64,000 nt of DNA from an uncultured Gammaproteobacteria bacterium (GTDB lineage: Bacteria > Pseudomonadota > Gammaproteobacteria > UBA4575). The stretch's first letter is position 1. Each line of letters starts with the position of its first letter. The notes beneath the pieces are model-generated. The model was not told the origin of the DNA. It saw nothing but the letters and a program-made list of their open reading frames with translations, and did not search any database. Location of the stretch: positions 509,630-573,629 of the forward strand of contig OX638335.1 in NCBI GenBank assembly GCA_951812785.1. Direction: 5' to 3'. A program made the position numbers and the translations under genes. Positions 336-15,512 of the stretch are shown in pieces.

Positions 336-1487
336 ATGTCTTTAATGCTGCGTTCATTCGATGTCACTGATCGCACATCGATCAAAAAATTCATTAAAAT
401 GCCTTGGGGCATCTATCAAGATGATCTTTGTTGGGTGCCACCATTAATTAAAGAGCGTTTAGATTTGCTTTCGCCGAAGCATCCTTATTTTGAGCATGCA
501 CAAGCGCGATTCTGGATTGCCTATAAAGACAATAAACCGGTCGGGCGCATTAGCGCTCAGTTTGATCAACTGAAATCTATTAGTGATCATGAGTCGGTAG
601 GTTATTTCGGCATGTTTGAGTGCGTTGATGATGTATATGTCGCGGCTGAACTTTTCGCCCAAGCAGAACAGTGGATTGCATCACGCCGGTGTGCATTGAT
701 TCGAGGCCCCTTTAGTTTGTCCATTAACCAAGAAAGTGGGCTGCTAATAGAAGGCTTTGATACGCAGCCGTATATTATGATGGGGCATGCTAAACGCTAT
801 TATCAAAATCTTTTTGAGAGGAATGATTACGCGAAGGCTAAAGACCTTTATGCGTGGTTGAATAAATCAGATTTTGAAAACCCTCCCGCTATGCAGCGTA
901 TTCTTAAACGCTATGAAGAAAGAATTGTGTTGCGTGATATCGATAAAAATAACCTTAAAACTGATATGAAAATCATGTTAGATATTTTTAATGATGCATG
1001 GGCTAACAATTGGAGTTTCATTCCTTTTACTGAAAATGAATTTATGCATTTAGGTGAAGAGATGTTGCAACTTATCTCTCCTAATCATTTTAAAATTGCA
1101 GAGTTCGAAGGTGAGCCTGCAGGCATGGTGGCGGGTCTTCCGAATTTCAATGAGATTACTAAAGATTTAAATGGTAGATTATTGCCAACGGGTATTTTTA
1201 AATTTTTATGGCGCTTGAAATTTTCTCGTCCTGCTTCAGGGCGAGGTGCTTTGTTAGGGATTAAGCAAAAATATCAAAATAATATGAAGGGATCAGCATT
1301 AGCGTTAACTTTGATTGGCAAATTTAAAGAATTCGCTATAAAAACAGGCTTTCAGCAACATGAATTATCTTGGGTGTTAGAAGATAATATGCGGCTTAAT
1401 AAGATTCTCGGAAGTTTGGGTGCGACTCAATACAAAACTTATCGGGTGTTTGAGAAAAGATTGTCACCTGTGACACAGCAAGCTTGA
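336..1487 (+). CDS. GNAT-fold acyltransferase-like protein, candidate bacterial ceramide synthase
   Basis: This 383-residue protein opens with the pattern of a large conserved family often annotated as a GNAT acetyltransferase: KKFIKMPWGIYQDDLCWVPP near residues 17-36, then VGRISAQFD near 68-76. The C-terminal half has GNAT-like elements, and ELSWVLEDNMRLNKILGSLG near 345-364 is the usual final motif. The bacterial ceramide synthase described from Caulobacter is, as I recall, an acyltransferase of this general type. The neighbours (fatty-acid hydroxylase, lipid kinase, CDP-alcohol transferase, nucleotidyltransferases) make an N-acyltransferase acting on a lipid amine plausible. The fold call is fairly secure. 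The ceramide synthase role is inference and other long-chain acyl acceptors are possible. Confidence 0.6.
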   Translation: MSLMLRSFDVTDRTSIKKFIKMPWGIYQDDLCWVPPLIKERLDLLSPKHPYFEHAQARFWIAYKDNKPVGRISAQFDQLKSISDHESVGYFGMFECVDDVYVAAELFAQAEQWIASRRCALIRGPFSLSINQESGLLIEGFDTQPYIMMGHAKRYYQNLFERNDYAKAKDLYAWLNKSDFENPPAMQRILKRYEERIVLRDIDKNNLKTDMKIMLDIFNDAWANNWSFIPFTENEFMHLGEEMLQLISPNHFKIAEFEGEPAGMVAGLPNFNEITKDLNGRLLPTGIFKFLWRLKFSRPASGRGALLGIKQKYQNNMKGSALALTLIGKFKEFAIKTGFQQHELSWVLEDNMRLNKILGSLGATQYKTYRVFEKRLSPVTQQA

Positions 1488-1491
1488 TGCT

Positions 1492-2268
1492 ATGACGTCT
1501 TGGAGCGCCGTAGTGTTGGCGGGTGATCGTGGTGTAAGTGATCCGGTAGCAAATGCCGCCAAGGTCTATGGTAAAGCAGCTGCTAAATTACACAACATAA
1601 CGCTGATTGAGCGAGTGATTGCGGCATTAAATCAATCTGACAGTATTAATAAAATATTCACGGTTGGTCCGAGCCAGCGATGTTTAGATGGGAATCCAGA
1701 TATACGCACTGTATTAGATAAATATAGCGTAGAAATCATCGAGCCCGCCAAAGGCCCTAGTGCAAGCGCAATGCGAGGCGTGTTAGCCAGTGCACGTTAT
1801 CCAACCTTAGTGGTGACTTGCGATCTACCTTTGTTGAATTCTTCGATGATTGATGATTACTGTCAACAAGTTGTTAATGTTGATGCTGATTTTGTTGTGG
1901 GTGCGGTTGACTATGCATTAATAGGTGAAAAAGCATCTACACTTAAGAAAACTAAATATCAGTTCAAGGGTCAAGCAGTTTGTTTTGCAAATTTATTCGC
2001 ACTGCTGAATCCGCAAGGCATAAAGGCAATTGAATATTGGCAAGATGTTGAAGAAAGTCGTAAGAAACCTTTGGAGCTGATTCGAAAGATAGATTGCTTG
2101 AGTATTCTGAGTTATAAGTTAGGTCGTCTAAGTCTGGCTCAAGCGGCGAATAAATTGTCGCAGAAAGTGGGCGCGAGGCTCGTGATTGAAGATTTTTCAG
2201 TGCCGGAGCTGGCAATAGATGTCGATTCTGCTCACGACTATGAAGTGCTATCTAGCTACCTAGAATAA
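1492..2268 (+). CDS. MobA-like NTP-transferase domain protein
   Basis: The protein has 258 residues. The N-terminal SAVVLAGDRG is a variant of the nucleotidyltransferase loop (normally LAGGxGxRxG), and TLVVTCDLPLLN near residue 104 is the matching metal-binding aspartate strand. It starts four bases after the acyltransferase stop, so the two are probably co-transcribed. A second true MobA is encoded at 34899-35489 beside mobB, so this copy is unlikely to serve the molybdenum cofactor. It more likely activates a lipid headgroup or sugar phosphate for this locus. The signature loop has lost one of its usual glycines (LAGDRG), so activity could be altered. The substrate is unknown. Confidence 0.7.
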   Translation: MTSWSAVVLAGDRGVSDPVANAAKVYGKAAAKLHNITLIERVIAALNQSDSINKIFTVGPSQRCLDGNPDIRTVLDKYSVEIIEPAKGPSASAMRGVLASARYPTLVVTCDLPLLNSSMIDDYCQQVVNVDADFVVGAVDYALIGEKASTLKKTKYQFKGQAVCFANLFALLNPQGIKAIEYWQDVEESRKKPLELIRKIDCLSILSYKLGRLSLAQAANKLSQKVGARLVIEDFSVPELAIDVDSAHDYEVLSSYLE

Positions 2269-2271
2269 TCT

Positions 2272-3000
2272 TTACTTGCGAGACCACTTCTCCGCGAGCT
2301 GTTGAGCGCGATCCAAATCCTGCACAAAATCCACTTCTGTCCATTCTAATCCATGGATAGAACAGGTCCCCACGTGTTGTTGAGATGCAAGCTGGTCAAT
2401 AGTGGATAAATACCATTTTTGTAATGATTCAGGTAAATACATCAATTCTTCGATAGTGTCTTTAAATAACTTAGCGCCTTCAGGGTTGAAATGCATGGCA
2501 CCAATAGATTCGCCGCTTACTTCAGATTTAGCTAGTTTTTTGCCGACTGAAAGTAATTGAGTACCGTCAGTAATGACTTTCATATCGTCATCGTCATAAC
2601 TATCTTTTTTGTCAGTGGCTAATGTAATGGGGAATTCATTAGCACTCAGTAATGTAGAAATTACTGTGGGCTCGAATAAGGCGTCACCATTTAAAATGAT
2701 AAAATCATCTTTAAAATGCTCGCGTGCCATCCAGCAGCTGGCTAGATTGTCAGCAATTTCATAAAACGGGTTGTAAATAAAGCTAACTTTATCTCCATAG
2801 CGTTTGCTAACAATCGCCTCAATACGTTGTGCGGCATATCCAACCACTGCGACTATTTGCTCAACACCGACTTCTTGTAGTGCGTCTATCTGCCATTCAA
2901 TAAAATACTTATCGTTTAGCGACAATAAACATTTCGGTGATGATTCTGTGTAGGGCAGTAACCGGCGTCCTTGTCCTGCACATAATATAATGGCTTTCAT
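2272..3000 (-). CDS. LicC-like nucleotidyltransferase (phosphocholine/alcohol-phosphate cytidylyltransferase type)
   Basis: The 242-residue protein begins with the intact NTP-transferase signature (IILCAGQGRRLLPYT, then SPKCLL near residues 22-27), with FIILNGDALF near 99-108 as the metal-binding strand. Proteins of this subfamily charge phosphocholine, other alcohol phosphates or sugar phosphates to their CDP or UDP forms in the cytosol. It is convergent with the MobA-like gene, three bases apart, and divergent from lptF. A CDP-alcohol phosphotransferase lies about 3.3 kb away (6312-7589), so this enzyme may supply its activated substrate. The nucleotide and alcohol are not determinable by eye. 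Confidence 0.75.
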   Translation of the reverse strand: MKAIILCAGQGRRLLPYTESSPKCLLSLNDKYFIEWQIDALQEVGVEQIVAVVGYAAQRIEAIVSKRYGDKVSFIYNPFYEIADNLASCWMAREHFKDDFIILNGDALFEPTVISTLLSANEFPITLATDKKDSYDDDDMKVITDGTQLLSVGKKLAKSEVSGESIGAMHFNPEGAKLFKDTIEELMYLPESLQKWYLSTIDQLASQQHVGTCSIHGLEWTEVDFVQDLDRAQQLAEKWSRK

Positions 3001-3129
3001 TGAGTTGGATAAAAAATATAGTTAGTGTTAGGTGCCTAGATGTAACAAAATTAGCGCTAGACGAATCGGGCGTAACTATACATTATACGCCAATATATGG
3101 TGAGACCAATTCAATGATAGATTAAAACT

Positions 3130-4179
3130 TTGATCATAACTTCTTACATAACCCGGGAGATACTCAGGCCGTTCGCATTAATTTGTACGGTTTTATTCTT
3201 GCTTATGGTCAGTTATAGCGCATTAGCTCTATTGGCAGATGCAGCAAGCAACTTAATTCCTGCCAACTTGTTAGTTGTATTAATAGTATCAAAGACCATT
3301 GCTGCATTTGAGTTATTTTTACCCCTAGCACTTTACGTTACTTTGCTAATGGGTTTGGGCAAGCTCTATTCTGAACAAGAAATTAGTGCTTTACATGCGT
3401 CAGGTATGAGTGTGTTTGGATTAGTTAAAATTTTGATGCCGCTAATTGTTTCTATTACTTTGCTGACGGCTATTGTGGCTATTTTTGTGCGTCCATGGGC
3501 ATATGATTTGCGCTATAACGCAAAACACCAAGCGCAACAAACTTATGATTTTGATCATTTTGAAGAGGGTTATTTTTATGAGAATAAAGACACTGGACAA
3601 GTTTATTTCGTAAGTAGCATTGATAATGAAAGCGATATAAAAAATGATATTTTTGTTTATCAGCCTAAGCAAAATTCTGTGCAAGTTGTTTATGCCGACA
3701 AAGGTTATCATCTGGAAGGTGAGAAGGATCAAGCGCCGGTGATGGTGTTCTTAGATGGTACTGCACATCAATTACAACAGAATAGTGAGGATACCTTAGT
3801 TAGCTTTAATCAATTCACTGTGTTACCTGAAGCAAAAGAAATTGTGCCGCAGTCGTTTAAAAGAAAAGCTGCATCGACTTATTATCTGGCAAGTTCAGAT
3901 GATCGTAGCGAGCTAGTGGAATTTCAATGGAGAACTACTTCTGCATTTAAAGCATTCTTTTTAGCTGTTATTGCAGTCTTGTTGGCGAAAACATCGCCAC
4001 GACAAGGTCGCTATGGAAAGTTAATTATTGGTGTAATGTTCTTCTTTGTAGTACATGCGGGTAGTCTTGTGATGAAAACATGGATGGAGCAGGGTGCGCT
4101 AAGTGTGGTGCCTGGTATGTGGAGTGTTGTTATTGGTTTAATTATGTTTACTGCGGTATTAGGTAAACGCTACTTGTAA
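3130..4179 (+). CDS. lptF: LptF/LptG-family permease, LptF type
   Basis: The 349-residue protein has the family layout: N-terminal membrane helices, a periplasmic beta-jellyroll region (about residues 130-250), then three C-terminal helices. LptF and LptG form the transmembrane part of the ABC exporter that moves lipopolysaccharide to the LptC/LptA bridge. The start used is TTG at 3130, because an in-frame stop lies at 3118 and no ATG precedes the conserved N-terminus. The LptG partner begins six bases after its stop. In most gammaproteobacteria lptFG lies next to pepA. Here it sits inside a lipid-biosynthesis locus, so it could be a second pair for another lipid. Confidence 0.88.
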   Translation: MIITSYITREILRPFALICTVLFLLMVSYSALALLADAASNLIPANLLVVLIVSKTIAAFELFLPLALYVTLLMGLGKLYSEQEISALHASGMSVFGLVKILMPLIVSITLLTAIVAIFVRPWAYDLRYNAKHQAQQTYDFDHFEEGYFYENKDTGQVYFVSSIDNESDIKNDIFVYQPKQNSVQVVYADKGYHLEGEKDQAPVMVFLDGTAHQLQQNSEDTLVSFNQFTVLPEAKEIVPQSFKRKAASTYYLASSDDRSELVEFQWRTTSAFKAFFLAVIAVLLAKTSPRQGRYGKLIIGVMFFFVVHAGSLVMKTWMEQGALSVVPGMWSVVIGLIMFTAVLGKRYL

Positions 4180-4185
4180 CTTTAT

Positions 4186-5277
4186 ATGTTCATATTACAA
4201 CGTTATATAGGTTTGAGTGTCATACGCGGGTTCCTGTTAATAGCGTTGATTATGGTGTCTTTGTTCTCCATTATTCTACTTATAGAAGAGTTGGATCAAG
4301 TCGGAACTGGCAGTTATAACTGGGTAATAGCAATAAAATATGTGTTATTGCATACGCCTAAATTGTTGCTGGATTTTGCTGCTTTTATTAGCTTGGTGGG
4401 ATCCATTTTGGCGTTAGGTTCATTGGCGTCACATCAAGAATTAGTGGCGACTGAAACGGTTGGTGTTTCTCCACGCGAGGTTACAAATTCTGTATTATTT
4501 GCAGCGTTAATACTGATGGCTTTGGTTTTGATAAACGCTCAATTTGTTATACCGGCAACGTTGCAGCGAGCTAATGTTGAGAAAACACTAGCTGTAGAAG
4601 GGGCTGGCGATTTTGTTAGTGAAGCGGGTTATTGGGCGCAAAATAATCATCAATTTATTCATGTGCAAGATGTAGAGCATGGGCGCATTCCGGCAGATGT
4701 GGAAATTTTTGAGTTTAATGGTCAGCATCAATTGCTGCGTTATTTGCATGCTGACACAGTTGATTTGTCTGAAGGGACTGAGACGGATTGGATGTTACAA
4801 GGAGTGCAGATTAAACAATTAGTTGATGGACGTTTGCAAGTGAGTAATTTGGAATCTATTAAATGGCAATCTTTTCTAAGTGCTGCTCAATTGGGCATTA
4901 TTGTATCTAAGCCCGAAGCTTTATCAATAACAGATCTATATCAATTTGTGCAGAGCTTAAAACAACGCGGAGAACAATCGTATCGATATGAGTTATTGTT
5001 CTGGCAGAAAATAATGATACCAATATCAGCTGCTATTATGATTTTATTGGGAATGCCTTTTGTGTTTGGATTACAACGTACCGTTTCCACAGGCAAGAGA
5101 ATTACCTTAGGTGTGTTGGCCGGAATCACTTTTTACGTGGCTTCTCAGTTGATTACTCATATGGGCTCACTTCAACAATGGTCGCCAATGCTAATCGCGG
5201 CAGTGCCAAGTGCAATTGTATTACTAGTATTACTGCTTATGAAAATGCGCTCGCCTAATGCGTTGTCGGCAGCATAA
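4186..5277 (+). CDS. lptG: LptF/LptG-family permease, LptG type
   Basis: This 363-residue partner of the preceding gene opens with MFILQRYIGLSVIRGFLLIA, has the ELVATETVGVSP block of the coupling region near residues 86-97, a periplasmic jellyroll segment (about 130-265) and three C-terminal helices containing GMPFVFGLQR. It would form a heterodimer with LptF and work with an LptB ATPase that is not in the window. Its last 23 bases overlap the 3' end of the convergent metallophosphoesterase gene. Whether it handles LPS or a locus-specific lipid is open. Confidence 0.88.
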   Translation: MFILQRYIGLSVIRGFLLIALIMVSLFSIILLIEELDQVGTGSYNWVIAIKYVLLHTPKLLLDFAAFISLVGSILALGSLASHQELVATETVGVSPREVTNSVLFAALILMALVLINAQFVIPATLQRANVEKTLAVEGAGDFVSEAGYWAQNNHQFIHVQDVEHGRIPADVEIFEFNGQHQLLRYLHADTVDLSEGTETDWMLQGVQIKQLVDGRLQVSNLESIKWQSFLSAAQLGIIVSKPEALSITDLYQFVQSLKQRGEQSYRYELLFWQKIMIPISAAIMILLGMPFVFGLQRTVSTGKRITLGVLAGITFYVASQLITHMGSLQQWSPMLIAAVPSAIVLLVLLLMKMRSPNALSAA

Positions 5278-6232
5278 ATTCTTTTCTAGTTGTTGCGATA
5301 AATTTTTTCTGCCTCATGTCGAAGGTATAACTCTGTTTGTTGATCATCCAGCTTTGCGTATTCTGAGTTATGTCGAACAATAAAAACTCTGCTTTATGAT
5401 TCTTTGTTTGATTAGTGCTAGATGAAGATGACATACCTACAACAGGAATTTTATTGTTGGCGCAATCAATGGAGTCATAACAACTGTTGTGTCCGTGGCC
5501 ATGTAGTATCAGATCAACTGGATATTGCTTTAATAAACTAATTAATTTGTCGCGATTTAATAAGCATTTGCGTAAGGGTGTGTGCGTCATTGTTACTGGG
5601 TGATGAATGAGTAGCACTTTGCAATAACTATCTAACGTTTTGCTACTAAGTAATTTGTGTAAACGAGTGAGCTGCTGTTGGTCTACTTTGCCAGTAGCGC
5701 GAAACCATGGTGCATCAAATGCGCTAGATAGACCAATAAAGGCAATATTTTTACGCATGCGTATGGTGGGGTAAAGCTGATTTAATTGCTTGAGCGCATG
5801 GTCAGATCGCTCGTCTCTAGTTTGATTGTCACCCAGCATATATTTTTCCCACAAGGCAAAACTGCGATGCCACTTTTCATTGACATATAAATCATGATTA
5901 CCTGGGATGAGAGTGAGGTCATTTGCAGATGCGACACTACGCAACCATTGGCTGGCTTGTTCGAATTCGTTTTTCAAGCCGATATGGGTTAAATCACCGG
6001 TGATGGCATAATGATCAACTTTGAGGCGATGAATTTCTTCAACGGCGAGGTCTAATATCCAGCGCTGATGAGTGTGACGTCGCTTGCGTAACCAGGATAG
6101 ATAACCAAGGATGCGCTTATTAATAAGGTGAATAGGATTGGGTGAGACTATAGTGGATAGGTGCAAGTCAGAAAGTTGCACAAATCTGAAAGACTCATTA
6201 GCCTGCCTGCCAGTTTGACTGCTTTCGTTCAT
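5255..6232 (-). CDS. Calcineurin-like metallophosphoesterase
   Basis: The 325-residue protein carries the metallophosphatase motifs in order: QLSDLHLS near residue 19 (DxH), ITGDLTH near 79 (GDxxH), IPGNHDLY near 107 (GNHD), LLIHHPV near 209, and LILHGHGHN near 240 (GHxH). These ligate a binuclear metal centre. The family hydrolyses phosphomonoesters or diesters, including lipid and nucleotide pyrophosphates. Lying between lptFG and the CDP-alcohol transferase, it may remove a phosphate from a lipid intermediate. No signal peptide or membrane segment is obvious. It is convergent with lptG and overlaps it by 23 bases. Confidence 0.85.
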   Translation of the reverse strand: MNESSQTGRQANESFRFVQLSDLHLSTIVSPNPIHLINKRILGYLSWLRKRRHTHQRWILDLAVEEIHRLKVDHYAITGDLTHIGLKNEFEQASQWLRSVASANDLTLIPGNHDLYVNEKWHRSFALWEKYMLGDNQTRDERSDHALKQLNQLYPTIRMRKNIAFIGLSSAFDAPWFRATGKVDQQQLTRLHKLLSSKTLDSYCKVLLIHHPVTMTHTPLRKCLLNRDKLISLLKQYPVDLILHGHGHNSCYDSIDCANNKIPVVGMSSSSSTNQTKNHKAEFLLFDITQNTQSWMINKQSYTFDMRQKKFIATTRKEFMLPTTH

Positions 6233-6311: not shown

Positions 6312-7589
6312 ATGATGAGCGTTAACTTAAATGATTCGGCATTATATACAATTATGGTTTACCACATTATAAATACCTGCGATGTCGCATTATGGGGGGT
6401 TTCTCAAGTTGAGCGTATTCGAAAAGTATTGGCCAAAGCCGGTGATTTCAGTGAAATTGCTGATACTGATGCAGTATTATCAGGACAAAATATTCTCTTA
6501 CTACGCGCTGACTATCTGTATGAAGCTAACGTCATACAAAAATTAGTTGCTCAGTCAGAAGCTATCTTGCTTTCATCATGTGATAAAAAATCTGTATCAG
6601 CCGTCTGGTGTGATGGTGGAAAATCTGTGCAAGCAATTCAGCTACTTAATAAGGAGCGGTCTGAGCCATACTTAGATTCAATCACTGTATATAGCCCACA
6701 ACAACTCACTGGTGGATATGATCCACGTTTGCGCAAATATGATTTAGCTCATGTCGTGCATATTAATGAGCATGACAAAACAGTCATCGAAAACTATTTA
6801 TATGATAAGTCCTATAAGGGTATCACTGATTTGGTGACTAAATGGTGGTGGCCATTACCTGCACGTGGGGTAGTGCGAAAATGTGCTGCTGCTAAAATTA
6901 CCCCCAATATGGTGACTGGATTTGGTTGGCTGCTGACTATCTTTAGTGGCTTTGCATTTTATTATGGTGAGTTAGTGCTGGGCTTATGTGCGGCGTGGTT
7001 GATGACATTTTTGGATACCGTCGATGGAAAGCTGGCACGTGTGACGCTTCAGTCAAGCAGGATTGGTCATGCGATGGATCACGGTTTGGATATTATCCAC
7101 CCGCCAATCTGGTACTGGTGTTGGGCGATGGGCCTTGGTTTGAGTCAAATTACATTTATCCATAGCACTTTGCCGGTCATGGATTGGGTGTGGGTTATGT
7201 TAGCGGCTTATGTGGGTGGCAGAATTTTTGAAGGTCTGTTTCAATTGTTGTTTAACGACATCAGTATCTTTTGCTGGAAACCGATAGACTCATTCCATCG
7301 ATTAATCACCGCGCGTAGAAATCCGTGCATTATCATGTTGAGTTTGGCAGTGATGATGGCTGATCCCGAATTGGGTTTCATGTGGGTAGTAGCATGGTCG
7401 GTGATTTCAACATCATTACTAGCTGCACGTTTCTTGTATGCTTGTTTAGTCAGAGTGATCAAAGGCCCATTAGAATCATGGATAGAAAATATTAGTCCTG
7501 ACCAAAGCGATTCTTCTTTAGCTGTTAAGTTGTTTACGGGTTATCCCGCACAAAAAACTATTGCGCCATTATTGCGCTCAGTGAAATAG
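6312..7589 (+). CDS. CDP-alcohol phosphatidyltransferase with degenerate nucleotidyltransferase-like N-terminal domain
   Basis: The 425-residue protein has two parts. Residues about 185-400 form the membrane CDP-alcohol phosphotransferase with a complete DGx2ARx8Gx3Dx3D motif (D238-G239, A242-R243, G252, D256, D260). Residues about 20-160 look like a worn NTP-transferase domain (ILLLRADYLYEANVIQKLVA near 61-80) without the glycine-rich signature loop. The architecture recalls the fused inositol-phosphate cytidylyltransferase/DIPP synthase enzymes, but here the first domain is probably inactive. Separate nucleotidyltransferases at 1492-3000 could replace it. It would join a CDP-activated alcohol or lipid to its partner in the inner membrane. 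The substrates are unknown. It leads a tight three-gene run. Confidence 0.85.
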   Translation: MMSVNLNDSALYTIMVYHIINTCDVALWGVSQVERIRKVLAKAGDFSEIADTDAVLSGQNILLLRADYLYEANVIQKLVAQSEAILLSSCDKKSVSAVWCDGGKSVQAIQLLNKERSEPYLDSITVYSPQQLTGGYDPRLRKYDLAHVVHINEHDKTVIENYLYDKSYKGITDLVTKWWWPLPARGVVRKCAAAKITPNMVTGFGWLLTIFSGFAFYYGELVLGLCAAWLMTFLDTVDGKLARVTLQSSRIGHAMDHGLDIIHPPIWYWCWAMGLGLSQITFIHSTLPVMDWVWVMLAAYVGGRIFEGLFQLLFNDISIFCWKPIDSFHRLITARRNPCIIMLSLAVMMADPELGFMWVVAWSVISTSLLAARFLYACLVRVIKGPLESWIENISPDQSDSSLAVKLFTGYPAQKTIAPLLRSVK

Positions 7590-7597
7590 CTAATACA

Positions 7598-8584
7598 ATG
7601 AGTGCTAATAATGTGCGGCTAGCAAATATTGTTGCGATTAGCAATCCTCGCAGTGGCAGAAATAAACGAGGTGGGTTTGAGACATTTGAGAGAACTATTA
7701 AAAACTATTCTGTCATTAAGCATGTTGTCATTAAGCATGAAGAGGACTTGCTGAGTGCGTTAGAATCTTGCAAGCAACAACAAATAAAAATAATAATTGT
7801 AAATGGCGGTGATGGGACGCTATTGCAGGTGTTGACCTATTTAAAGAAAAAATCAAATCAAAATTATATACCTGGCTTAGTGCTGTTGCAGGCTGGAACT
7901 ACTAGCATGGCGTTTGGTGATGTGGGTTGTAAGGGTCGCTTAAACAGAGTGATTGCTAAAGTCATCGATTACTCTAAAGGTAATATAAGCGCTCTAGAAG
8001 CAACATTAAGTCCGATACTTCAAATGACATTGCCTGAGAAAAATATGACAGTGTGCGGTATGTTTTTTGGTGCTGGTGCGATATACAACGGCATACTTTA
8101 TTGTCGACAAAACATACATACAAAAGGCGTGCGTGGCGAGCTAGGTCCATCAATGGCGATGATTCGTTATATCTTCGACTGGCTAACTGCGAATAAAATG
8201 ACAACGTCAACTCAAGCCAGTATTGAAGTTGATCAAGCGCCAGCGTTAACAGGCGATTTCGCCATTATTACAGCAACGACATTAAATCGACTGCTCATGG
8301 GCGTGTACCCTTTTTGGGGGCAAGGAAAATCAAATGATGATATTTCGCTAACATTGATAAAGAAAAATGCGCCTAAAGCGACCAAAGCCTTTATGAGGAT
8401 ACTTCGTGGTAAAGACCCTTCTGTAGAAAGTAATGTTGACTATTATCGTAGTGTCTGTCCAACTAAAATTACGTTGATAATTAATGATGGGTTTACCTTG
8501 GATGGGGAGTTATTTGGTCAGTCAGGTGTGCCTACAAAAGTCGTGCTTCAATCTGCCGGAAATGTAACATTCCTAACCACATGA
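7598..8584 (+). CDS. Diacylglycerol/ceramide-kinase-like lipid kinase
   Basis: The 328-residue protein has the DAGK catalytic domain: VAISNPRSGRNKRG at residues 13-26 and the nucleotide-binding VNGGDGTLLQ with GGDGT at 70-74. The later TLDGELFGQ is typical of the C-terminal sandwich. Soluble enzymes of this fold phosphorylate diacylglycerol, sphingoid bases or ceramide with ATP. It follows the CDP-alcohol transferase by eight bases and overlaps the next gene by four (ATGA), so the three are very likely made together. In this context the product could be phosphatidic acid or ceramide phosphate. The choice between the two substrates is inference. Confidence 0.85.
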   Translation: MSANNVRLANIVAISNPRSGRNKRGGFETFERTIKNYSVIKHVVIKHEEDLLSALESCKQQQIKIIIVNGGDGTLLQVLTYLKKKSNQNYIPGLVLLQAGTTSMAFGDVGCKGRLNRVIAKVIDYSKGNISALEATLSPILQMTLPEKNMTVCGMFFGAGAIYNGILYCRQNIHTKGVRGELGPSMAMIRYIFDWLTANKMTTSTQASIEVDQAPALTGDFAIITATTLNRLLMGVYPFWGQGKSNDDISLTLIKKNAPKATKAFMRILRGKDPSVESNVDYYRSVCPTKITLIINDGFTLDGELFGQSGVPTKVVLQSAGNVTFLTT

Positions 8585-9483
8585 ATGACGCTTTATATCA
8601 ACATGTGTTTTCTAATTTGCAGTATCAACAAGATGATGTACTTAGAAAGTTTGTTGAAGCATTAAGATCTGAGTATAAACAATCTTTGCTAGCAGTTGTT
8701 TTTTATGGATCATGTATGCGCACTCGTGATTACCAAGATGCTATGTTGGATTTTTATGTCATCGTTGATGATTATCGTCATGCTTATTCTGGTTGGTGGT
8801 ATTCGCTAGCAAATAAAATACTTCCACCAAATGTTTTCTACTTGCAAATACAACTAGGTAATCAGACTTATCATTGTAAATATGCAGTCATGAGTAAGTC
8901 AGGGCTGTCAACTGCTGTTGAAAAATCGTTTCACCCTTATTTTTGGGCGCGCTTTACACAGCCATTGTCATATATATATGCAGTTAATGATGATGTGAAA
9001 AAATGGATTGCTGAAGTTCAATGTGCAGCCGCAACTGCCTTTGTAGGTTCAGTTAAACATAGCCTCGAAGAAGAATTTTCTAGTGACGTGCTATGGGTGC
9101 GGGGACTTCAGTTAGCATATTCCACTGAACTGAGAACTGAGACTAAACAACGTGCGAGTGTCATTTATAATAGTCAGCGTGATTTCTATGATGGGGTCAC
9201 TGCTATCTTATTCCCGAATAAGATAAATAATTCTTCAACGAGTAAAGTAAAATTTTTTACTTCTATTAAGTGGAAGCTTAGAGTAATTCTCGGGAAAATT
9301 TTATCAATATTACGACTCATGAAAGCTACTACTACATTTGTTAACGGTGTTGATTATATTGCATGGAAAATTGAGCGCCATACTGGTGAACGGGTTATCG
9401 TTAGTGACAAGCTTCGCAGGCATCCGCTTATATACTGTTGGCCCTTGCTGTTGAAGTTCTATAGGCGGGGAAAAATTCGCTAG
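8581..9483 (+). CDS. Nucleotidyltransferase-fold protein resembling mitochondrial Tam41 CDP-DAG synthase
   Basis: The 300-residue protein has a nucleotidyltransferase core: VVFYGSCMR near residues 39-47 and MLDFYVIVDD at 55-64. Spacing and wording resemble Tam41, whose core reads YGSGVF followed by MLDFI and VDD. Further matches are HCKYAVMS near 99-106 and WARFTQPLSYIY near 121-132, against the KYG and GRxHKPV segments of Tam41. Tam41 makes CDP-diacylglycerol from phosphatidic acid and CTP on the mitochondrial inner membrane. The start codon overlaps the lipid kinase stop, so the kinase product could be its substrate. Homology is by eye only and the activity is not shown. Confidence 0.6.
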   Translation: MNDALYQHVFSNLQYQQDDVLRKFVEALRSEYKQSLLAVVFYGSCMRTRDYQDAMLDFYVIVDDYRHAYSGWWYSLANKILPPNVFYLQIQLGNQTYHCKYAVMSKSGLSTAVEKSFHPYFWARFTQPLSYIYAVNDDVKKWIAEVQCAAATAFVGSVKHSLEEEFSSDVLWVRGLQLAYSTELRTETKQRASVIYNSQRDFYDGVTAILFPNKINNSSTSKVKFFTSIKWKLRVILGKILSILRLMKATTTFVNGVDYIAWKIERHTGERVIVSDKLRRHPLIYCWPLLLKFYRRGKIR

Positions 9484-9929: not shown

Positions 9930-9948
9930 TAAGAAGGAGTAGATACAG

Positions 9949-10350
9949 TTATAAGTAGTGACTTAGTGCCTCATTAATTTCTGGTCTGATATTTCTAAAT
10001 AGCCAATGTGCGCAAACTTTACTTCCTGTATAAGGGATATCAACAACACGTGTATTGATAGTCATCGTTATTAACGATTGCTCAGGGTAAAAAATCTCTA
10101 TTTGGGTTACCCAGATCCAATCACCTTTGCTTTGATGGGTTCTTGATGTCAAATTTAAGGGAAAAATATATTCTTTATTATCTATATTAGTGATTATTGT
10201 AGTAGTGCTAAATGCATATGTGGCGGCTATGAGTTTTGCTGCCACTATATGTTGACTGTCAATGTGTGCCTGATATGGATTGATTAATTCTGGGTTTGAC
10301 TGGTTGAATAGCGCATACAGATAACGAATTTTCTCTGTCGTATTTTGCAT
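9949..10350 (-). CDS. Conserved hypothetical protein
   Basis: The 133-residue soluble protein has no signal peptide or membrane segment and I do not recognise the family. The first half is helical with an alanine-rich stretch (AAKLIAATYAF). The second half reads as beta strands (WIWVTQIEIFYPEQSLITMT), consistent with a small alpha+beta fold. It lies downstream of ureG on the same strand but is separated from it by about 180 bases containing a large hairpin, so it is probably not in the urease operon. Confidence 0.5.
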   Translation of the reverse strand: MQNTTEKIRYLYALFNQSNPELINPYQAHIDSQHIVAAKLIAATYAFSTTTIITNIDNKEYIFPLNLTSRTHQSKGDWIWVTQIEIFYPEQSLITMTINTRVVDIPYTGSKVCAHWLFRNIRPEINEALSHYL

Positions 10351-10532: not shown

Positions 10533-11144
10533 TTAAATCATACCGTTCTTTTTGATGAAGGTAATTATTTGGTCAAGTCCTTGTTCTTGTTTTAGATTGG
10601 TGAATAAGAAAGGTTTATCTCCTCTCATTTTTTTAGCATCACGATCCATTACTTCTAGTGAAGCACCTACCATAGGTGCTAAGTCAGTTTTATTAATGAT
10701 TAGCAAATCTGACTTTGTGATTCCTGGCCCCCCTTTGCGAGGAATTTTTTCTCCTGCGGCGACATCTATAACATAAATAGTAAGGTCGGATAGCTCAGGG
10801 CTGAATGTTGCGCTTAAATTGTCTCCACCACTTTCAATAAATACAAAGTCTAGGTTTTTGAAAGTATCACAAAGACTTTCTACTGCTGACAGATTCATGG
10901 ACGCATCTTCGCGGATTGCCGTATGTGGGCAACCACCTGTTTCGACACCGATGATCCGATTTTTTTCTAATGCTTTATGATGAATTAGAAAGTCCGCATC
11001 TTCACGTGTATATATATCGTTGGTCACAGCGGCTATTTCGTAATCATCACGCATATGCATGCACAGTAAGCGAAGTAGAGCTGTTTTTCCTGAGCCGACT
11101 GGGCCGCCGACACCAATTCTTAGTACTTGTTTATTTGTAGTCAT
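10533..11144 (-). CDS. ureG: Urease accessory GTPase UreG
   Basis: The 203-residue SIMIBI-class GTPase has P-loop [14 protein letters not shown] at residues 12-25, the family motif [11 protein letters not shown] near 103-113, and metal-site GGCPHTAIR near 69-77. UreG hydrolyses GTP to drive nickel delivery into apo-urease as part of the UreDFG complex. It is the last gene of the urease operon, 15 bases after ureF. Length and motifs are complete. Confidence 0.97.
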
Positions 11145-11159
11145 ATGTATTTATGTTGA

Positions 11160-11828
11160 TTATGAGCGAAAAAGTCGTGTGTATTGCTGTTCGTGTTGCA
11201 TGCTAGCCATAATTGCCCCCGGACATGTTGCTCCGATGAAATTATCTTCTATGAGTAATCCACTAGTAACACTTGAATCAATGTCTTCCATTAAATTTGA
11301 TAGGATTAGCTGCCCACTGGTTTGACCAAGTGGAATGAGCTTTACACCGATACTTACTTGGTTTTCACACCAGCTCCAAACTAAGCCTTGTGTTGCAATA
11401 CTCTTTTCAATGTCCCATCTCGTGCAGGCTAAGCTAAATGTTGTTAATAATGAACATTGACTTTTCTTCCAATAAACTGCTTCTGGTATATCTAAATCAA
11501 CTAGCAGTCTTGCCAATGCGCCACCTATTTGAGAGTCTTCTAATAACAATTCGCTGGTTTCACGCGATGCCAATATGTAATCATTCCAATAGCGCACATC
11601 TTCATTGCTCTGTTTAATATGTGCATCGTAAAGGCGTGAAAATATAGGTATATCTAAATACTCTACACTGTTTTTTAGTACACCCTTTATCCATTCATTT
11701 AAGCGTTGCTGATCTGTTACATATTCATTATGGCAGGCAGTTTCTAATCCTTGTGAGTAGGCATAGCTGCCTATGGGTAAAGTAGGGCTGCATATTCTAA
11801 GTAATTGCAATAAAGAAAGCTTACTCAT
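11160..11828 (-). CDS. ureF: Urease accessory protein UreF
   Basis: The start is set at 11828 (MSKLSLLQLLRICSPTLPIG), giving 222 residues. A longer frame exists but runs back through ureE. The helical protein carries the usual PIGSYAYSQGLE near residues 17-28. UreF bridges UreD and UreG and gates the GTPase during nickel insertion. Its start codon overlaps the ureE stop by eight bases, which indicates translational coupling. Confidence 0.95.
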   Translation of the reverse strand: MSKLSLLQLLRICSPTLPIGSYAYSQGLETACHNEYVTDQQRLNEWIKGVLKNSVEYLDIPIFSRLYDAHIKQSNEDVRYWNDYILASRETSELLLEDSQIGGALARLLVDLDIPEAVYWKKSQCSLLTTFSLACTRWDIEKSIATQGLVWSWCENQVSIGVKLIPLGQTSGQLILSNLMEDIDSSVTSGLLIEDNFIGATCPGAIMASMQHEQQYTRLFRS

Positions 11829-12294
11829 GGTGATGATTGTGAGAGTGCGTATGGCTATGTCCCTGTCCATGACCCTGGGAATATGCACCAGACTCAGGTT
11901 CAAAGGGTGCAGACTCTTTAGTAATGCTAAGGCTTAGATGCTCTAGCATTTCATTAAGTACATGGTCGTAATGAAATCTTAAATATGTGTTTTTAACTTC
12001 TAATGGCACATGTCGATTACCTAAATGATAGCTAGCACGCATGAGAAGCAACGGATTATCAGAGGTTGCTGTGCTGACATCTTCATTAGCAGAAATAATC
12101 TCAATGATTTCACCAGATTCTGCTTGTAGCTTATCGCCTCCGCGTAAAATCATTCCACGTGGTAAAAAAAATCCTGCTTCTTCACCTGAATCAAGTTTGG
12201 TGTGCAACCTAGCTTTTTGTCTGGCTTCAAACGGTAAAGTTAAGCTGAATTCAGCATCAATGCTGGAATCAACTTTTGTGGTAATTTTAATCAC
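11821..12294 (-). CDS. ureE: Urease nickel metallochaperone UreE
   Basis: The 157-residue protein has an N-terminal peptide-binding domain and a C-terminal metal-binding domain (NRHVPLEV near residues 92-99). It ends in a histidine-rich tail (HGQGHSHTHSHNHHHE), as in UreE proteins that store or hand over Ni2+. It lies 12 bases downstream of ureC and overlaps ureF. Confidence 0.95.
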   Translation of the reverse strand: MIKITTKVDSSIDAEFSLTLPFEARQKARLHTKLDSGEEAGFFLPRGMILRGGDKLQAESGEIIEIISANEDVSTATSDNPLLLMRASYHLGNRHVPLEVKNTYLRFHYDHVLNEMLEHLSLSITKESAPFEPESGAYSQGHGQGHSHTHSHNHHHE

Positions 12295-12306
12295 TTAGGT
12301 AGTTAT

Positions 12307-14010
12307 TTAAAAAAGAAAGTACCGCTGAGCTAACGCAACTACCTCAGCAGGCTCACAAGTAAGTAGTTTGCCATCGGCGTGTACTTCATAAGTTTGTGGG
12401 TCAACTTCAATGTTAGGTTGGTAACTATTATTAATAAGATTGCATTTCTGAATTGATCGAGTATCTTTTACTGCGATGCATTGTTTGCTTAACGATAATG
12501 CTTTTGCAATGTCATTATCCAGCGCGGCTTGCGAAACAAAAGTATAGCTTGTCTTATGATTTGCATTGCCATAGGCGCCAAACATATAGCGATAATGCAC
12601 TGGCTGTGGAGTAGGTATGGATGCGTTAGGGTCACCCATGGGTGCAGCTGCAATAAAGCCACCTTTAATGATTAACGAAGGCTTAGTTCCAAAGAACGCT
12701 GGTTTCCATAGCACTAAATCGGCAAGTTTGCCGACTTCAACAGAGCCTATTTCATGTGCAATACCATGTGTGATAGCAGGATTAATGGTATATTTTGCGA
12801 TATAACGTTTTGCGCGATTGTTGTCGTTGTCAGAACTATCCTCTTCTAATGCGCCGCGTTGTTTTTTCATTTTATCTGCGGTTTGCCATGTGCGGCAAAT
12901 CACTTCGCCGACACGGCCCATGGCTTGTGAGTCAGAAGCAATCATACTGAATGCACCTAAGTCATGCAGAATATCTTCTGCGGCAATTGTTTCTTTACGT
13001 ATTCTTGATTCTGCAAACGCGACATCTTCAGGTATTTTTGTATCTAAGTGATGACACACCATCAACATGTCTAAGTGTTCATTGATAGTATTGACGGTGT
13101 ATGGGCGAGTAGGGTTAGTACTTGAAGGCAACACGTTAACTTCACCACAAGCACGAATAATGTCGGGCGCATGACCTCCGCCAGCCCCTTCGGTGTGATA
13201 GGTATGGATGGCACGGCCTTTAAATGCAGCAATAGTATCTTCAACAAAACCGGATTCATTAAGCGTATCGGTATGAATTGCCACTTGGATGTCATATTTT
13301 TCTGCCACACTTAAACAATTGTCTATAGATGCCGGGGTGGTGCCCCAGTCTTCATGCAGTTTGAGTCCCATGGCACCTGCGATGACTTGTTCTTCTAATG
13401 CAGCGGGTAGGCTTGCGTTACCTTTACCTAAGAATCCTAAATTCATGGGAAAAGCATCGGCTGCTTCAAGCATTTTGTGTATGTTCCACGGACCTGGTGT
13501 GCACGTGGTTGCATTGGTGCCGGTTGCGGGGCCAGTGCCGCCACCTAACATTGTTGTAACACCAGACATTAATGCTTCTTCGATTTGCTGCGGACAAATA
13601 AAGTGAATGTGTGCATCAATACCGCCCGCTGTAATAATTTGACCTTCGCCCGCAATCGCTTCTGTGCCAGGGCCGATAGCAATATTTACGTTTGGCTGAA
13701 TGTCGGGGTTGCCTGCTTTGCCTATACCGACAATTCTTCCTTGTTTAATACCAATGTCAGCTTTAACGATGCCCCAATGATCTAAAATCAGTGCATTGGT
13801 AATAACAGTATCGACAACATCCTTAGAACATAATTGACTTTGTCCCATGCCATCACGGATAACTTTGCCACCACCAAATTTTACTTCTTCACCGTAAGTG
13901 GTATGGTCTCGTTCAACTTCAATAAATAACCCGGTATCGCCTAAACGTACTTTGTCACCAACGGTAGGGCCGAACATCTCTGCATAGGCTTGTCTGCTAA
14001 TCTTGGGCAT
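12307..14010 (-). CDS. ureC: Urease alpha subunit UreC
   Basis: The 567-residue catalytic subunit has full family length. Visible active-site elements are HIHF near residue 135 (nickel ligands), [10 protein letters not shown] near 215 with the lysine that is carbamylated to bridge the two nickels, [12 protein letters not shown] (His ligand) near 245, [15 protein letters not shown] near 272 and the mobile-flap [16 protein letters not shown] near 317-332. It hydrolyses urea to ammonia and carbamate in the cytosol as (UreABC)3. It lies four bases after ureB. Confidence 0.98.
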
Positions 14011-14014
14011 GGTT

Positions 14015-14323
14015 CTATTCCACCTTTCCCATTACTTTGGCGTTGAAGCCATAAATAATTTTGCTGCCGTCAATCTCAACTAATTCAATGGTTCTTTCTT
14101 GACCCGGCTCAAAACGTACTGCGGTACCTGCTGCAATATCTAGGCGCATACCTAACGTGCTTTCGCGGTCGTAAACTAATGCAGTGTTAGTTTCATAGAA
14201 GTGATAGTGAGAGCCAACTTGAATTGGTCGGTCGCCAGTGTTTGCAACGGTAATATTTAATTTTTTGCGGCCTTGATTCAGCTCAATGTCACCAGTTTGT
14301 ACAATTAGTTCGCCAGGTATCAT
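14015..14323 (-). CDS. ureB: Urease beta subunit UreB
   Basis: The start is placed at 14323 ([20 protein letters not shown]), giving 102 residues, the normal beta-subunit length. The longer frame to 14443 overlaps ureA and has no family match upstream. The structural subunit carries [17 protein letters not shown], characteristic of UreB. It lies 16 bases after ureA. Together with the separate ureA this is the three-subunit bacterial arrangement. Confidence 0.96.
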
Positions 14324-14339
14324 GTCTATGCTTCCAAGA

Positions 14340-14642
14340 TTAAGTAATAGGGTTGTGTACAGTGACAAGCTTAGTGCCGTCGGGGAATGTTGCTTCGACT
14401 TGTACATCGTGAACCATCTCGGCAATGCCATCCATAACATCATTCTGGGTAAGTAGATGTCTACCTTCTTCCATTAATTCAGCGACTCGCTTTCCTTCTC
14501 TTGCTCCTTCTAAAATAGCACAAGAAATATAAGCGATTGTCTCAGGATAATTTAATTTAATGCCTTTATTTTTGCGCCGCTCAGCTAATAGTCCAGCGGT
14601 GAACAATAATAATTTGTCTTTTTCTCTTGGTGATAATTCCAT
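14340..14642 (-). CDS. ureA: Urease gamma subunit UreA
   Basis: The 100-residue protein begins [20 protein letters not shown] and contains [20 protein letters not shown] (residues 25-44) and the end block [18 protein letters not shown], all standard for UreA. It is the small structural subunit of urease. It starts 18 bases after ureD. Confidence 0.97.
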
Positions 14643-14660
14643 GCCCGTTCCTATGTGAAA

Positions 14661-15512
14661 TTAAGTATACCAAATTCTAGGAGTGCTTGATTCTAGTTGG
14701 AGAATTTGTGGTCTTAGTATTTTCCATAATGCCGCAAAAAAATCTTTAATTTTCTCTGCATAGGCACTCATTGCTCTCACGATAAATAAGCCATTAAATG
14801 ATGTATACGAGCTGCTTAAATCGTTAAATTGTAGAGTTACATTGTTTATCGCCTCAAGGTTGATAATTGTGTCACGATCAGTAGTGACAAAAGTGCCAAC
14901 AGATTTATATCCTTGAAGCCCCCAATTAGCATCAAAGAGTTCATCGCCTCCAATGAGACGATTGATTTCTAACAAGATAGGTTTATTATCCCGCCAAACT
15001 TCTAATTTTTGTCGACATTGACCAGATATAAAGTACTCTTTTTGTGCAGGCAAACCTAAGCATTGAATTTCCCATGCAAAAAAACGATTACTACTATTTA
15101 TATTAATTCTGGTGGTGGAGTTAGCATTAGTGTCATTAAAATAAACAGTTTCTTGAGGTAGCCATTCAAGGATTGCATTAGTTTTTAAAGTGATTGTTTG
15201 GTTCTGGCTGGCTTGTATTCCTGTACTGCGATAAAACTTTGTTGCTGCCGGTGTAGTGATCAATGCATGAGAATTATTGTTAAGTTGCGCGTTCAGACTC
15301 AATGAGTCTCCACCAACAATACCACCGGGAGGATGGATCAAATAGATATGACAACAACCATTTGACTCAGGGTAAAATGGTTTCTGAACCATAAGTGGTC
15401 CAGAGTGCTTCTTGCTTGTTAGGATGGTTTTGTTGTTCCTTTCTGCAAATGACAAATTCAATGTCGCTTTCCAGCTCGCTTGACTTTGTAGTGATAATGC
15501 AGTGGTAACCAT
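14661..15512 (-). CDS. ureD: Urease accessory protein UreD
   Basis: The 283-residue scaffold contains HPPGGIVGGDSL near residues 60-71, TTPAATKFYRS near 84-94 and WLPQETVYFN near 115-124, the conserved UreD blocks. UreD binds apo-urease and, with UreF and UreG, forms the tunnel through which nickel passes. It is the first enzyme gene of the urease operon, preceded six bases upstream by a small membrane-protein gene. Confidence 0.95.
   Translation of the reverse strand: MVTTALSLQSQASWKATLNLSFAERNNKTILTSKKHSGPLMVQKPFYPESNGCCHIYLIHPPGGIVGGDSLSLNAQLNNNSHALITTPAATKFYRSTGIQASQNQTITLKTNAILEWLPQETVYFNDTNANSTTRININSSNRFFAWEIQCLGLPAQKEYFISGQCRQKLEVWRDNKPILLEINRLIGGDELFDANWGLQGYKSVGTFVTTDRDTIINLEAINNVTLQFNDLSSSYTSFNGLFIVRAMSAYAEKIKDFFAALWKILRPQILQLESSTPRIWYT

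Follow-up and report, generated by a model that had tools for sequence, protein, structure and literature searches.

A cpgC ortholog in a bacterial sphingolipid gene cluster is a Tam41 homolog and a candidate CTP:ceramide-1-phosphate cytidylyltransferase

The ORF at positions 8581-9483 of the 64,000-nucleotide stretch of gammaproteobacterial DNA analysed here (the window) is orthologous to Caulobacter cpgC (CC_1161 / CCNA_01219), matched by gene order and not by accession, and its product is a homolog of Tam41. The protein is proposed to act as a CTP:ceramide-1-phosphate cytidylyltransferase (CTP + ceramide-1-phosphate -> CDP-ceramide + PPi), and the probability of this reading was put at roughly 0.55-0.62. 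cpgC itself is already known to act in the formation of phosphate-bearing sphingolipids; the chemistry proposed for it here is putative. The original prediction had described an ORF encoding a Tam41-like protein, and both parts of that description held: the ORF (300 aa, forward strand) is present, and a profile of 75 relatives and the predicted structure of the protein both point to Tam41.

The published gene order in Caulobacter runs from CC_1165 to CC_1152, with CC_1160 encoding the ceramide kinase CpgB and CC_1161 encoding CpgC (PMC11324152). The Caulobacterales loci collected in this work comprise ligase-reductase-spt, CpgC-kinase-CDP-alcohol transferase, phosphoesterase, LptF-LptG-GNAT-CofC and CpgD. 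Since this is the published order and CC_1161 is CpgC, the ORF at 8581-9483 was assigned as the cpgC ortholog. The gene set aasR-cerR-acpR-spt/cpgC-cpgB-cpgA/CC_1158/lptF2-lptG2-cerS-CC_1153/cpgD is common to the window together with locus L011 and to the Caulobacterales loci L130-L132, and Pseudomonas luteola (L053), named as a carrier in published work, has the same gene order as the window. Caulobacterales genomes with this gene order match the CpgC profile at E values of 1e-58 to 1e-91. Caulobacter CpgC, like the window gene, adjoins a ceramide kinase in a cluster with ceramide, head-group and Lpt genes. Compared with the Caulobacter layout, that of the window has the kinase and cpgC codirectional with LptF/LptG, and spt, ACP, reductase and ligase upstream on the other strand. 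The features of the cluster are collected in Table 1.

Table 1. Genes of the sphingolipid cluster in and upstream of the window
Feature	Position	Strand	Evidence or remark
cpgC ortholog, Tam41-fold nucleotidyltransferase (predicted), 300 aa	8581..9483	+	proposed CTP:ceramide-1-phosphate cytidylyltransferase
cpgB-type lipid (ceramide) kinase	7598..8584	+	PF00781 (DAGK_cat) E 7.8e-11; adjoins CpgC in most relatives
cpgA-type CDP-alcohol phosphotransferase	6312..7589	+	PF01066 E 3.7e-7
Calcineurin-like phosphoesterase, CC_1158 position	5255..6232	-	PF00149 E 3.1e-13; same place in Caulobacterales loci
LptG, second genome copy, CC_1155/1156 counterpart	4186..5277	+	TIGR04408 305.6 bits
LptF, second genome copy	3130..4179	+	TIGR04407 267.9 bits
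cpgD-like NTP transferase (CDP-head-group synthase), CC_1152 position	2272..3000	-	PF12804, PF00483
CofC/MobA-like NTP transferase, CC_1153 position	1492..2268	+	PF12804 E 3.1e-12
GNAT N-acyltransferase, at the place of cerS (CC_1154), the gene for bacterial ceramide synthase	336..1487	+	PF00583 26.9 bits
Acyl-AMP ligase	upstream of window, L011		NF006624 762 bits, cut-off 600
Serine palmitoyltransferase	upstream of window, L011		NF047599 596 bits, cut-off 500
Reductase, NAD epimerase family	upstream of window, L011		
ACP ORF with LDS motif	upstream of window, L011		

The cluster holds a complete ceramide gene set, comprising serine palmitoyltransferase, acyl-AMP ligase, ACP, reductase and the GNAT protein at the cerS position. 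The catalytic motif of the cpgA-type transferase (D-x2-DG-x2-AR-x8-G-x3-D-x3-D) is complete, with D235, D238, G239, R243, D256 and D260 invariant in 20 relatives. The cpgD-like protein is similar to one half of a bifunctional enzyme, the inositol-1-phosphate cytidylyltransferase, and its gene occupies the same position in the Caulobacterales locus L131. The presence of second copies of LptF and LptG (the other pair of the genome is at G000:C1:1346806-1348924) parallels that of LptF2/LptG2 in Caulobacter, which have been proposed to serve sphingolipid export.

Several features of the region were noted separately. The N-terminal extension of the cpgA-type transferase, of about 180 aa (6312-6850), is without a Pfam match and is also found in relatives. 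NeuB- and NeuC-like genes, recognized by inspection, lie directly downstream of the serine palmitoyltransferase gene (L011 2239-4446). Also by inspection, the sphingolipid cluster is followed by a urease gene cluster (10533-15512) with an ABC transporter ATPase beyond it; urease genes likewise come after cpgC in the relatives L012 and L017.

Taken alone, the protein encoded by ORF 8581-9483 gave no match in Pfam or NCBIfam and no significant match among PDB sequences. PF09139 (Tam41_Mmp37) in particular did not match it at E values up to 1, so the protein was filed as CpgC, a Tam41 homolog, and not as Tam41. Across 398 genomes of the phylum PF09139 gave three weak matches below the cut-off, none of them in this genome, which indicates that the single-sequence Pfam route undercounts the CpgC family. 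A nine-sequence alignment from this genome and same-class relatives (A1) was used to scan a collection in which each bacterial or archaeal species is represented by one genome. This one scan yielded 454 CpgC relatives, of which 80 loci were kept. A second alignment of 75 relatives (A2) served as the profile in comparisons with known families.

The best PDB match of the 75-member profile was fission-yeast Tam41 (6IG2/6IG4) at E 2.8e-7, with the next chain at 0.0042. When the 75 relatives were scanned singly, 35 of them matched PF09139 (best E 8.8e-10); the Pfam check suggested with the original prediction succeeds for these relatives and fails for the window protein by itself. Profile-profile alignment of CpgC with the two solved Tam41 sequences, both PDB-derived, covered 171 columns with a probability of 95.5 % and P 1.6e-8. 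Addition of a third, human Tam41 sequence, which unlike these two was not taken from a PDB entry and was also used in the reversed control, the column test and the tree, raised the probability to 97.0 %, the reversed control giving 0.1 %. Of 20 aligned columns that are at least 95 % conserved in CpgC, 11 carry the same residue in each of the three Tam41 sequences; of the remaining 157 columns, 9 do so (Fisher p 1.8e-7). Judged by these alignments, the resemblance between CpgC and Tam41 is not due to chance.

Bacterial homologs of Tam41 are already known (PDB 7ECD; PMC11646218). Firmicutes Tam41, which makes CDP-DAG, groups with eukaryotic Tam41 and not with CpgC, whose identity to mitochondrial Tam41 is about 16 % and which appears as a sister clade and not an ortholog. 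In a tree that holds only three Tam41 sequences, one of them the human one, CpgC and Tam41 are split by a long branch. On this sequence evidence CpgC is a widespread lineage, separate from both mitochondrial and Firmicutes Tam41. The idea that mitochondrial Tam41 descended from proteobacterial CpgC was considered and found unsupported: the Tam41 sequences formed a clade of their own, set apart by a very long branch, although with three sequences this test is weak.

The AlphaFold2 model of the protein (pLDDT 93, pTM 0.89) consists of a nucleotidyltransferase domain and a helical C-terminal domain, with Tam41 as the closest fold. The top five Foldseek matches in the PDB are all Tam41 (E 1.2e-8 to 1.1e-6). 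The closest solved fold is that of the CTP-Mg-bound Firmicutes Tam41 (7ECD, Kimura et al. 2022), to which the model aligned in VIA-align with Z 18.1 over 222 residues at 3.6 A; fission-yeast Tam41 (6IG4) gave Z 15.1 over 210 residues. The next family, the aminoglycoside nucleotidyltransferases ANT(4'), reached Z 9.3 over 114 residues, half the length, sharing the nucleotidyltransferase core and leaving most of the C-terminal half of CpgC unmatched. The structure overlay thus places the model with bacterial and mitochondrial Tam41, far above ANT(4'), and Tam41, not an unrelated nucleotidyltransferase family, is the best match overall. CdsA (CTP_transf_1, PF01148) catalyses the same type of reaction as that proposed for CpgC (CTP + lipid phosphate), but its integral membrane fold is unrelated; PF01148 is absent from ORF 8581-9483, for which a nucleotidyltransferase fold is predicted.

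The motifs YGS, MLDF, VDD, KYA and ARFxQP stand in the Tam41 order and spacing in ORF 8581-9483, as originally predicted. CpgC contains the Tam41 motif set of YGS, a single Asp, K, R and SY..[DE].R.E; the elements shared with Tam41/TAMM41 (Mmp37, PF09139; 6IG2, 6IG4) are YGS, D57, K100, R124, P128, Y180, R185 and E187. Residues D57, K100, R124, Y180, E183, R185 and E187 are invariant in all 75 relatives. In the nucleotidyltransferase fold the DxD motif usually has a second acid. At the corresponding position 59 all readable CpgC relatives have Y, F or H and none has an acid, so that the second DxD/DxE acid of ANT is absent from CpgC; it is likewise missing from the Tam41 sequences. Tam41 has been reported to keep one of the three canonical acids and yet to be active (PMC11646218), and D57, which is the acid retained in Tam41, is present throughout the CpgC family, so the catalytic carboxylate is not lost.

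The missing second acid, together with the overlap between the start of cpgC and the stop of the kinase gene, would also suit a catalytically dead Tam41-like scaffold or regulator of the kinase. We consider this very improbable, because Tam41 works with one of its three acids, a dead protein would not need seven invariant residues and several genomes retain cpgC in the absence of the kinase.

The overlap itself was confirmed: the ATG of cpgC (8581-8583) and the TGA of the kinase ORF 7598-8584 (8582-8584) share the four bases ATGA, and the same four-base overlap was found in the relatives L005, L007 and L008. In the proposed mechanism the translationally coupled kinase would supply ceramide-1-phosphate, which CpgC, as a soluble or peripheral-membrane nucleotidyltransferase of the Tam41 fold, would convert with CTP to CDP-ceramide. 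In this cluster, which is of the ceramide phosphoglycerate type, a further, presumed enzyme would then add a glycerate-type head group to the activated ceramide; the three other CDP-alcohol transferases of this genome could serve in that step.

Ceramide-1-phosphate is the lipid expected from the complete sphingolipid cluster and the orthology with cpgC, whereas the substrate of Tam41 is phosphatidic acid. CDP-ceramide synthesis is the likeliest reaction, because the kinase product is ceramide-1-phosphate, the partner protein is predicted to have the Tam41 fold, and ceramide-1-phosphate has to be activated before it can accept glycerate; CTP is the presumed donor, ceramide-1-phosphate the presumed acceptor and CDP-ceramide the presumed product. 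CpgB has been shown to be a ceramide kinase producing ceramide-1-phosphate in Caulobacter (PMC12275187), and deletion of Caulobacter cpgC abolishes both CPG and CPG2 (PMC11324152). According to Olea-Ozuna et al. 2024 (PMC11324152), InterPro assigns a CDP-DAG synthase domain to CC_1161; the window protein shares this CDP-DAG-synthase-like domain. An NDP-activated ceramide was suggested in 2024 by Geiger's group (PMC11324152). A search of one paper collection found no report of bacterial CDP-ceramide.

The original prediction had placed the gene in an alternative route to CDP-DAG beside an ordinary CdsA. The genome does encode CdsA at another locus (G000:C1:992356-993147, E 9.1e-57), and the presence of this enzyme, together with the location of the gene in a complete sphingolipid cluster and its identity as a cpgC ortholog, led to rejection of that route as the main reading. 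A CDP-diacylglycerol synthase of the genuine Tam41 type, which would use phosphatidic acid and feed a second CDP-DAG pool, would have the same fold and core residues, and in one distant relative (L010) the gene is flanked by those for a PlsC-type acyltransferase and a CDP-alcohol transferase. Such an activity is nevertheless unlikely for CpgC, since ceramide and not phospholipid genes adjoin cpgC in nearly all relatives whose flanks are long enough, the Caulobacter cpgC mutant loses CPG and CPG2, CdsA is encoded in the same genome and, in Caulobacterales, CpgC co-occurs exactly with a CpgB-type (ceramide) kinase. The L010 protein (695-3209, genome G023) is 25 % identical to CpgC and may stand in a glycerophospholipid setting; CdsA is present in that genome too.

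The co-occurrence was established in 150 Caulobacterales genomes, 39 of which encode CpgC. Strong matches to CpgB-type kinase (E 2.6e-16 or better) were obtained in the same 39 genomes and in none of the 111 genomes lacking CpgC, where there were only weak partial DAGK matches or none. The CDP-alcohol transferase of the cluster is encoded in 22 Caulobacterales genomes, all among the 39, and is lacking in the remaining 17. The kinase-CpgC pair therefore appears as the unit and the CDP-alcohol transferase as an addition, which fits the genetics of Caulobacter: CPG arises through CpgB and CpgC, and CPG2 requires CpgA. Over the 80 CpgC loci of the wider scan, where contig ends lower the neighbour counts, the kinase was found in 66, LptF in 64, LptG in 62, GNAT in 58 and the CDP-alcohol transferase in 37. 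The predicted coupling of cpgC to a lipid kinase was in this way upheld by the start-stop overlap and by the 39/39 co-occurrence. The predicted succession of kinase, cytidylyltransferase and CDP-alcohol transferase fared less well: all three are encoded in the cluster, but a strict chain is doubtful given the 17 genomes without the transferase and the finding that the Caulobacter transferase gene of the cluster (cpgA) is not required for CPG (PMC11324152). Both points also speak against the CDP-ceramide reading, in which a head-group transferase is needed.

No dedicated next-step transferase is conserved with CpgC, which favours a different use of the Tam41 fold: with another NTP, with a soluble phosphate acceptor such as phosphoglycerate, or for joining glycerate directly to ceramide-1-phosphate. 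CpgC differs from the Tam41 signature in having C45 for G, Y65 for P, Q127 for K and E183 for D, each about 95 % or more conserved among the relatives, and these differences and the long branch mean that its donor and acceptor could differ from those of Tam41. In the published scheme CpgC attaches glycerate by a mechanism called unidentified (PMC12275187), and still so called in May 2026 (PMC13228409). Such a transfer is possible but doubtful, because CpgC keeps the Tam41 core residues, CpgD makes CDP-glycerate and is not needed for CPG, and joining of glycerate and ceramide-1-phosphate without activation is energetically unfavourable (PMC11324152). With CDP-ceramide synthesis as the preferred reading, the Tam41 homology and the strict kinase-CpgC co-occurrence in Caulobacterales reduce the mechanistic gap between ceramide-1-phosphate and CPG to one simple assay. 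If this reading is correct, the Tam41 fold would gain a class of sphingolipid-activating enzymes, and phospholipid head-group chemistry a CDP-sphingolipid branch across several bacterial phyla; bacterial anionic sphingolipids are known to support survival of Caulobacter without LPS.

The kinase is not obligatory for CpgC in general. That rule holds in the 39 Caulobacterales genomes and is false overall, since a CpgB-type kinase is missing genome-wide (E 1e-6) in 10 of the 80 cases (L026, L033, L036, L040, L041, L057, L060, L071, L079 and L082). These genomes belong to several lineages, and some hold only other DAGK-domain proteins or none; their retention of cpgC counts against the CDP-ceramide reading. 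In one of them, Pseudomonas umsongensis (L060), a 20-residue remnant with 90 % identity to the kinase of the near relative L067, whose CpgC is 89 % identical, lies just before cpgC (9932-9991) and looks like a deletion scar. A gene for a PF05118 aspartyl/asparaginyl beta-hydroxylase was found near cpgC in 14 of the 80 loci (e.g. L079 4852-5667), including nine of the ten kinase-less ones, and its product is possibly an acyl-chain hydroxylase for the sphingolipid.
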